A DNA stretch of 64,000 nt from Pseudobdellovibrionaceae bacterium (GTDB taxonomy: Bacteria; Bdellovibrionota; Bdellovibrionia; Bdellovibrionales; Bdellovibrionaceae). The notes under the pieces were generated by a model, which saw only the letters and a list, made by a program, of their open reading frames with translations, ran no database searches and had not been told where the DNA came from. This document shows, in pieces, positions 60,380 through 63,005 of this stretch. A program made the position numbers and the translations under genes. Each line of letters opens with the position of its first letter. Positions within the stretch are counted from its first letter, which is position 1. The stretch lies in NCBI GenBank assembly GCA_016785955.1, contig JAEUWH010000007.1, positions 1 to 64,000 of the forward strand. The letters run 5' to 3'.

Positions 60380-60409
60380 AAAAAAAACCCATCTTGTGAT
60401 GGGTTTTTT
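60380..60409 (-). terminator. Intrinsic terminator of the histone-like gene
   Basis: On the minus strand AAAAAACCCATC (60409-60398) pairs with GATGGGTTTTTT (60393-60382) around a 4-base loop and runs on into T residues to 60380. It lies 20 bases after the stop of the gene at 60430-60951 and also has a T run on the plus strand. Confidence 0.85.
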
Positions 60410-60429
60410 CGCTATAAACCTTTTTGAGG

Positions 60430-60951
60430 TTAAAAATATCCTTCTTCGCCGTCATCTTCATCGTCATCATCGTCGTCTGAATCATCATTGCCAGCGTCAT
60501 CATCGTTTTCTTCCATATCTTCGAATTGCTCGGATGATTCGGCATCGTCCCAGTTGTCATCCTCGTCTTCAGCCGTGGGTTCATCATCTAGATCAGTTAC
60601 TGTTTCCAGTTCTGAATCATCATCGAACTCAGATGTTAACTCGTCTAATGATTTCTCTGTTTCTTCGCTGATGATCATGCCACCTGCAGCCGCTGCGCCT
60701 GCCGCGAGTGCATTTTTTTTGTCTTTTTTAGCTTTTGCAGGAGCCGGCTTTTTAGCAGCTTTCGGAGCGGCTTTTTTAGCTGCTTTTGCTGTCGCTTTTT
60801 TGGGAGCTACTTTTTTTGCTGTGGTTGTAGCCTTTTTAGCAACTTTTTTGGGAGCGGCTTTTTTAGTCGCTTTTGCTTTAGCTTTTGGGGCTGCTTTTTT
60901 TGTGGCTTTTACTGCCTTTTTTGGTTTCGCTGTTTTTTTCTTCTTAGCCAT
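60430..60951 (-). CDS. Histone H1-like, lysine/alanine-rich protein with acidic C-terminal tail
   Basis: A 173-residue bipolar protein. Residues about 1-80 consist of AKKA/APKK-type repeats rich in Lys, Ala, Pro and Thr, like eukaryotic H1 tails and bacterial AlgP/Hc1-like proteins. A short neutral link at about 81-94 leads to residues 95-173, which are dominated by Asp, Glu and Ser (SEFDDDSELETVTDLDDE, DDDDDDEDDGEEGYF). The basic half should bind DNA or RNA, and the acidic half could screen it or bind other proteins. AAGGAG lies seven bases before the ATG. It has its own promoter and terminator. The charge split is seen directly; the nucleoid role is inference. Confidence 0.88.
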   Translation of the reverse strand: MAKKKKTAKPKKAVKATKKAAPKAKAKATKKAAPKKVAKKATTTAKKVAPKKATAKAAKKAAPKAAKKPAPAKAKKDKKNALAAGAAAAGGMIISEETEKSLDELTSEFDDDSELETVTDLDDEPTAEDEDDNWDDAESSEQFEDMEENDDDAGNDDSDDDDDDEDDGEEGYF

Positions 60952-60970
60952 GAAAAACTCCTTCGAGGTC

Positions 60971-61079: not shown

Positions 61080-61862
61080 TTAATTTAGATAGTACTCGTC
61101 CAAAATTTTACCCAATTTCGGATCAATACGATGGGATAAAAAGTAGCCACCTTTATATTCGCCTTTTTGCGGGACAAACGTCAAATAGCCCAATGCTGGT
61201 TTTGTTTTGTCGGGGCCACGAATCGAGAACATCAATTCGTGGATGATAACACCTGAAATTGGGGGTACGGGATTGAATGAAGTTTCAGCATACAGACCCA
61301 TAGCTTCACCACTTAGGTATAAGTAAACCTTTTTATCTCTATTGGGAGTGAGTAAAATTGCTTTTGAGGGTGGTTCCCCCGCAGGAAAGTAGGGTACGCG
61401 ATCACCATTTGGCAATTTGGCAACGACTTCTGTGACGTTTCGCAGCACATATTTAACGGGAATCGAGAGCGTTAAGAATGGTCGATCATTGACGTATTCA
61501 ACATAGAGCTTCATTCCTGGATATTCGGGGAAGCTCATGCTGAGTAGTACTGGATCGACGATCATCGGGATTCTCAATAGAAAAGAGCCGGTGGCGCGGT
61601 TAAAATCGATCGAGACAACGCCTGATGCGGAAGGGCCTTCCGCTACGGAACCCGTCATGTCGGCATTTTTGATTATGGCTTCCAGTGCTTTGCGATGCTG
61701 GGCTGCGGTTTCGTCCGAAGGTGTGTGTGTTGCCGAGTTGTTGTCTCCGGTATTTGAAGGGTCAGTATTTGGGGACTGATTCGGTCTAAATCCTGGCGCA
61801 CACTGGATCAAGAAAGCTAAACTGAAGCCTAAGAGCATACGTGAATATAACTTCGTATTCAT
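61080..61862 (-). CDS. Lipoprotein of unknown function
   Basis: A 260-residue lipoprotein (lipobox LIQC, C21). A Pro/Asn/Thr-rich linker (about 25-50) precedes a beta-rich domain (about 70-255) containing SVEYPGMKLYVEYVNDRP-like strands and ILLTPNRDKKVYLYL. I recognise no family. It is likely outer-membrane or periplasmic and monocistronic. Confidence 0.75.
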   Translation of the reverse strand: MNTKLYSRMLLGFSLAFLIQCAPGFRPNQSPNTDPSNTGDNNSATHTPSDETAAQHRKALEAIIKNADMTGSVAEGPSASGVVSIDFNRATGSFLLRIPMIVDPVLLSMSFPEYPGMKLYVEYVNDRPFLTLSIPVKYVLRNVTEVVAKLPNGDRVPYFPAGEPPSKAILLTPNRDKKVYLYLSGEAMGLYAETSFNPVPPISGVIIHELMFSIRGPDKTKPALGYLTFVPQKGEYKGGYFLSHRIDPKLGKILDEYYLN

Positions 61863-62126: not shown

Positions 62127-63005
62127 TTATAGAGTATTTTGGAAATAGTTTACAAATATGGACTCTAAGATTGGCCATTCGCTGTCAGGATCATGATAAC
62201 GAATGCCCAAAACAGATTGGTTTTCTTCAATCTCTAAGTGAGGTCCCGATAAAAAGACGCGGCCTTTACCAAACTCAAACACAATCATCGCAGGAAAATT
62301 TTTAGAAAACTCGGAGTACATTTTGATGCGTTTTAATTTTGCTTCGGTTTCGTCGACTAAGAATGCAGGGCCTCCCAGAAGTAAAATGCGATAATCTTTT
62401 TTAAAGTTTTGCATGTAGAACTTGAAATCTAACATGCCTCCTTTAAATGGTTTTACTTTTAAAGCGGTTCCGTCAAAGGCGATCCCATTTAAAAGGCCAA
62501 TTCCGTAAGGAGTTGGCATCGGCGTTGGGCCTTGGCGATGTGATGTCGCATAAAATGCTCCGGCACAAATTCCAACATAGTTCCCGCCAGCGTTGACGAA
62601 TTTCAAAATCTCTTGGGCTCCCTTGGAACCCAGGTTTTCATTGTAGATCCAAGATTTTCCGCCGGGCATAATCAGCGTATGAAAGCCACCTTTGTTCAGC
62701 GAGCCATTGAGGATGTCTTTTTCATAGATCACCTTATAAGAGCGACGACGGCTGTATAAAAAGTTTTTCAAGTGACGTTTGCCAAAAAGCCAAGTGCCTT
62801 TGCCATAAAAGAGGCCCACAACTTTGGCTTTACCCGGAAAAATAACTTGGTCGGGCAATTGATCCACTTGGTTATCTTTCAAATCATTCCAAGAGCCTTC
62901 GTCCACACCTTGATATTCCATGTACATAAGACTGCCGTTGTAACCAAAGGCTTGAGTCAGGCTCAGCACAGCTAATATGATTATCGAGTAGAATAATTTT
63001 TGCAT
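62127..63005 (-). CDS. Exported BPL_N / class I glutamine amidotransferase-like protein
   Basis: A 292-residue protein with a signal peptide (about 1-21, LAVLSLTQAFG). The fold matches the biotin-ligase N-terminal (BPL_N)/GATase1-like group: LIMPGGKSWIYNENLG, nucleophile C147 in NYVGICAGAFYAT, and the H256-x-E258 pair in LSGPHLEIE. In cytoplasmic relatives this is an amidotransferase-like or accessory domain; here it is exported and alone. The substrate is unknown. The 3' end is 89 bases before a hairpin terminator. Confidence 0.8.
   Translation of the reverse strand: MQKLFYSIIILAVLSLTQAFGYNGSLMYMEYQGVDEGSWNDLKDNQVDQLPDQVIFPGKAKVVGLFYGKGTWLFGKRHLKNFLYSRRRSYKVIYEKDILNGSLNKGGFHTLIMPGGKSWIYNENLGSKGAQEILKFVNAGGNYVGICAGAFYATSHRQGPTPMPTPYGIGLLNGIAFDGTALKVKPFKGGMLDFKFYMQNFKKDYRILLLGGPAFLVDETEAKLKRIKMYSEFSKNFPAMIVFEFGKGRVFLSGPHLEIEENQSVLGIRYHDPDSEWPILESIFVNYFQNTL

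Follow-up and report, generated by a model that had tools for sequence, protein, structure and literature searches.

Results

The window, i.e., the whole 64,000-nucleotide stretch of Pseudobdellovibrionaceae DNA that we analysed, contains a minus-strand open reading frame (ORF) whose product joins a basic and an acidic half (hereafter the bipolar protein). The features of this locus, with the basis for each in brackets, are:

60380..60410, minus strand: intrinsic terminator hairpin 3′ of the bipolar gene (folding energy)
60430..60951, minus strand: bipolar protein ORF, 173 aa and a stop codon (ORF translation, homologues, synteny, dN/dS)
60433..60447, minus strand: C-terminal tip EEGYF, residues 169–173 (alignments, synonymous codon variation)
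60433..60666, minus strand: acidic block, residues 96–173 (charge count, dN/dS, alignment)
60511..60561, minus strand: W/F motif within the acidic block, residues 131–147, DDNWDDAESSEQFEDME (alignment column counts)
60622..60666, minus strand: central motif, residues 96–110, EETEKSLDELTSEFD (AlphaFold2, alignments)
60667..60714, minus strand: Ala/Gly-rich hinge, residues 80–95 (read directly)
60715..60951, minus strand: basic Lys/Ala/Pro block, residues 1–79, net charge +33 (charge count, sequence)
60958..60963, minus strand: ribosome-binding site AAGGAG (read directly)
61080..61862, minus strand: putative lipoprotein gene, 260 aa, no Pfam match (synteny, Pfam search)

According to the ORF list, the start codon is an ATG at 60951 on the minus strand, and AAGGAG can be read directly from the sequence 6 nt 5′ of it; ribosome-binding sites also precede the homologues of this gene. 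The stop codon is followed by a hairpin and U-run (−16.2 kcal/mol, z −6.2), which is absent from the output of the consensus terminator scan, probably since A-U pairs take up the U-run. A consensus promoter scan returned no promoter upstream of the gene on the correct strand. The ORF, whose boundaries the initial annotation had placed exactly, is a real gene rather than a low-complexity accident, because it has tail-bearing homologues, a conserved neighbourhood and dN/dS values well below 1 in both halves, and because a ribosome-binding site and a strong hairpin terminator are also present.

The initial annotation had described a Lys/Ala/Pro half and an acidic half in one chain, and the charge count bears this out, with +33 over residues 1–79 (the basic composition begins at residue 2) vs. 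−43 over residues 80–173. The AlphaFold2 model is one of disorder (mean pLDDT 53), with a single weak helix at residues 96–110. This charge split is retained in homologues across the phylum, whose arms average +38.8 and −37.2, with a mean net charge of +1.6. Most homologues have a net charge near zero, certain others are clearly basic overall (up to +49), and the charges of the two arms correlate weakly (Spearman 0.36, p 0.02, a p value that ignores relatedness); exact charge balance is therefore not required.

A single-sequence search retrieved homologues with the acidic tail from 33 of 60 relatives, and a profile built from 24 family members matched 245 of 369 phylum genomes, a number that includes some weak matches that are not orthologues, given such composition. 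The tail is thus kept in homologues, where the initial annotation had named its absence or lack of conservation as an argument against its proposal. Raising the E-value limit revealed divergent members among the apparent absences, three of which retain the tip (DEGYF in G210, DGSYF in G058 and G045), and a bipolar protein in G056 that ends in GMI. Others were AKKA proteins that are unrelated and carry a SWIB-like or a GroES-like domain. By eye, two of the loci (L181 in G015, L186 in G233) represent a further H1-like type within the phylum, a long AKKA/KKKVAKKAT tail joined to a SWIB-like domain, as in Chlamydia, and at a third (L190 in G036) a GroES-like protein has a long N-terminal extension rich in Lys. 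A looser tip pattern, applied to genomes without a profile match, was far too unspecific, and a close-relative scan of the genome contigs matched a single Bdellovibrio record.

In relatives, the gene order is ClpB, a small protein, flagellin (FliC), lipoprotein, bipolar gene, sigma54-type regulator, XerC and RecO, with losses and insertions among them, and the lipoprotein gene lies directly upstream of the bipolar-family gene in most. Since this gene order is conserved, we regard the bipolar genes as orthologous within the taxonomic order. For example, in G189 the bipolar gene (about 2,962,576–2,963,172, plus strand) lies downstream of the lipoprotein gene and a 277-aa flagellin gene, which by gene numbering is probably fliC5, i.e., Bd3052 (PMC2791853). 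The window has at the position of most relatives’ flagellin gene (62127–63005, minus strand) a gene for a BPL_N (biotin-protein-ligase N-terminal)/glutamine-amidotransferase-like protein. Relative to HD100-like DNA, the G035 orthologue (L131/L035, on a 3,769,537-base contig) has a frameshift in the Lys-repeat region, which could reflect slippage, an assembly error or a pseudogene.

The best-conserved feature of the bipolar protein is its C-terminal tip, usually acidic residues followed by Gly-Tyr-Phe-COOH. Among 44 homologues collected regardless of ending (20 distinct, 20 class-level and 4 remote bipolar sequences), 43 end in Phe and 42 in Tyr-Phe: all 20 distinct sequences end in GYF, the class-level homologues in YF (19/20) or LF (1/20), and the remote ones in YF (3/4) or MI (1/4). 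An alignment of 49 members has Phe in 49/49 and Tyr in 48/49 at the end, but it had been filtered for a YF or LF ending, and the unfiltered 44 provide the fair count. From composition, about 0.005 (<0.01) Tyr-Phe ends would be expected in the 49-member alignment, whose sequences have a median pairwise identity of ~45% and differ far more over the remainder of the acidic block than at the tip. The tip codons differ synonymously (GGA TAT TTT, GGT TAC TTC, GGC TAC TTC), from which it follows that selection acts on the protein and that neither an RNA/DNA element nor recent ancestry explains the tip. A pattern scan of the window’s genome did not find the same tip on other credible proteins, the other five sites being in short or unconvincing frames. 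In G005 (L003), the orthologue’s stop at 1995 is followed by an in-frame AQLTREEGYF and a stop, a second EEGYF tip that looks like a partial tandem duplication.

Two internal motifs accompany the tip. The central motif has the aligned pattern S-L-D/E-D/E-L/I ... F-D-D, for which several of the order’s other families have (K)-P-x-V-P-S-L-E-E-I ... N-P-F, and coincides with the sole helix predicted by AlphaFold2. By alignment column counts, position 134 of the W/F motif is W in 23/44 and F in 9/44 sequences, F143 occurs in 30/48 and E144 in 38/49. The initial annotation had overlooked the central motif (~96–110) and, above all, the conserved tip. In the window’s comparisons with unsaturated synonymous sites, dN/dS is about 0.035–0.12 for the acidic half and about 0.16–0.29 for the basic half, values that are rough because synonymous divergence is high (pS about 0.7). 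In the window’s comparisons, purifying selection thus acts more strongly on the acidic than on the basic arm; the direction is consistent except in the G005–G001 pair, where the halves do not really differ.

The bipolar protein genes of families f12 (another class), f22, f24 and f26 adjoin a gene for an HD-domain hydrolase, usually with a Tad-like gene as well, and their products have no YF tip. Those of f12 have an internal YGYGWGY motif in common and often a single aromatic residue at the end; loci L101, L103, L104, L107, L110 and L111 of this family share YGYGWGYEEGLD, with one Tyr or Phe at the C terminus. No bipolar gene lies beside an HD-domain gene in Bdellovibrionales, where the HD-domain gene stands apart from it, often beside flagellin. 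We read the other-class proteins as possibly of one kind with the bipolar protein, each lineage having a docking motif of its own.

Searches of Pfam and NCBIfam gave the bipolar protein no match above a family cut-off, and the known systems that it resembles each differ from it. It shares a disordered Lys/Ala/Pro-rich arm of similar composition with the KPAA tails of Pseudomonas AlgP/PhaF and with chlamydial Hc1/Hc2. To our knowledge, these proteins have neither a long acidic arm nor a conserved aromatic C-terminal tip; the conserved acidic block sets the bipolar protein apart from basic-only H1-like and AlgP/PhaF-type tail proteins. AlgP has in addition a 124-aa N-terminal helical domain (PMC9239181), whereas the only helix predicted here is at 96–110. 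Histone H1 and prothymosin α are disordered, carry opposite high charges and form a tight disordered complex (PMC7661507); they are two proteins, whereas the bipolar protein, which has no evident homology to them, holds both charges in one chain. In Hfq (acidic C-terminal domain) and HMGB1 (acidic tail), an acidic tail likewise lies beside a basic nucleic-acid-binding surface, but both have folded nucleic-acid-binding domains, and AlphaFold2 predicts none in the bipolar protein.

The tip is of the type found on single-stranded DNA-binding protein (SSB), being acidic and ending in Phe: the SSB of the window’s genome ends in DTSEEIPF, and the two proteins have E-E-x-x-F with a terminal Phe-COOH in common, although one tip is GYF and the other IPF. 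SSB itself was rejected as an identity, as the bipolar protein has no OB fold and no Pfam SSB match, and SSB is a separate gene in the genome. A histone fold of the Bd0055 type was rejected as well (no Pfam histone match, a disordered model and a separate HBb-type gene in the genome). The N-terminal part of the sigma factor model NF004560 has the same basic-then-acidic low-complexity order; the match scored 23 bits vs. a cut-off of 711, lacks the sigma domains and is one of composition, as is that to RNase E. The matches to BUD22 (17 bits vs. a cut-off of 37) and to Cdc26 in the PDB (E 0.06) look like chance acidic matches.

Discussion

The reading that we favour, tentatively and with a probability of roughly 45%, is that the bipolar protein is a disordered two-arm adaptor with a polyanion-binding basic arm, a self-complementary acidic arm and a partner-docking aromatic tip. 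By analogy with the similar tails of AlgP, PhaF and histone H1, the N-terminal Lys/Ala/Pro arm would bind a polyanion, most likely DNA and possibly polyphosphate or RNA; a reservation is that RNA, ribosomes and polyphosphate are likewise bound by proteins rich in Lys. In the free protein the acidic arm, with its nearly opposite charge, could rest against the basic arm of its own or of another chain and so lower or tune binding; the tip would dock a specific partner protein and thereby free the basic arm or set its position. We infer all three of these activities, i.e., polyanion binding, masking and docking. A Tyr-Phe end that scarcely varies, together with the conserved central motif, indicates a specific docking partner beyond pure charge masking, and the likeness of EEGYF to the SSB tip EEIPF and to the acidic-aromatic stretches of histone chaperones suggests, by analogy, where candidate partners may lie. 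There are precedents: AlgP KPAA repeats bind DNA, with AlgP/PhaF tied to granule–nucleoid tethering (PMC9239181), two further papers describe autoregulation of the bacterial RNA chaperone Hfq by its acidic C-terminal domains (PMC5606850) and autoinhibition of eukaryotic DNA/RNA-binding proteins by D/E repeats (PMC10250230), and H1 with prothymosin α is a third example (PMC7661507).

Masking could also be the whole function. In a purely electrostatic, self-masking chromatin protein, as the initial annotation had suggested, the acidic half would act as a DNA mimic over the basic half with no specific partner, which agrees with the near-neutral net charge of most homologues, with the charge split kept across the phylum and with the Hfq and D/E-repeat precedents. 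Such a protein would not account for the central motif or for how little the Tyr-Phe end varies, nor for the stronger sequence constraint on the acidic than on the basic half, and we consider it unlikely.

The resemblance of the basic arm to the AlgP KPAA tail also brings to mind an AlgP/PhaF-like function, in tethering storage granules such as those of polyphosphate or in scaffolding a condensate, with the acidic arm setting solubility. AlgP is found at polyphosphate granules, whose spacing depends on it (PMC9239181). The missing N-terminal helical domain and a neighbourhood with no recognisable granule gene argue against this function, which we rate as quite improbable.

It is very doubtful, too, that the bipolar protein is a chaperone for the HBb (Bd0055-type) histone or another basic nucleoid protein, with an acidic aromatic arm that shields or delivers the histone and a basic arm that holds DNA. 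Eukaryotic histone chaperones offer a parallel, having aromatic residues in their acidic stretches. The window’s genome has a gene for a Bd0055-like histone, as do 59 of the 60 genomes that were searched (PF00808 sat at its cut-off, so a Bd0055-type query was used), but as both genes are near-universal in relatives their co-occurrence says little, their linkage is not conserved, and HU or some other basic protein could fill the role just as well. In G010, ~8 kb separate the bipolar gene from a second histone-like gene, which resembles Bd3044 in position and score (contig C1, 3142860–3143030 and 3150652–3151176); the spacing is similar in G035, and in the window’s genome the two are on different contigs.

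Least probable is a modulator associated with RNA polymerase or the ribosome whose acidic arm mimics nucleic acid, in the way of the RNA polymerase delta subunit, with its acidic tail, or of actinobacterial primary sigma factors, with their charge-split N-terminal extension. The best NCBIfam resemblance (E 3.7e-5), to the N-terminal, charge-split portion of the sigma factor model, is far below the family cut-off and accounted for by composition, and the bipolar protein has no sigma or delta domain.

Returning to the two-arm adaptor, a link between it and the predator’s changing nucleoid is a reasonable guess. Part of a review describes nucleoid remodelling in the predator as poorly understood and names HU, IHF, Fis, Dps and two histones as nucleoid proteins, with nothing like the bipolar protein in that part (PMC11318664); a limited literature search found no work on the protein. 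The ingredients are each known; their conserved combination with an aromatic tip that hardly varies appears, from what we have checked, to be undescribed. It is conceivable, if unlikely, that the protein is a linker histone and its own chaperone in one chain, whose Tyr-Phe tip would fit a conserved pocket on a protein of the chromosome or of replication (the HBb histone, HU or an SSB-tip-binding protein), with competition for the tip switching nucleoid compaction. Being conserved, disordered and charge-split, with an almost unvarying tip, the protein is in any case a concrete and easily testable candidate, and the Tyr-Phe tip offers a bait for finding its partner. If the one-chain linker histone and chaperone were true, the Bdellovibrio phylum would have a system of regulated chromatin that differs from the known nucleoid proteins.
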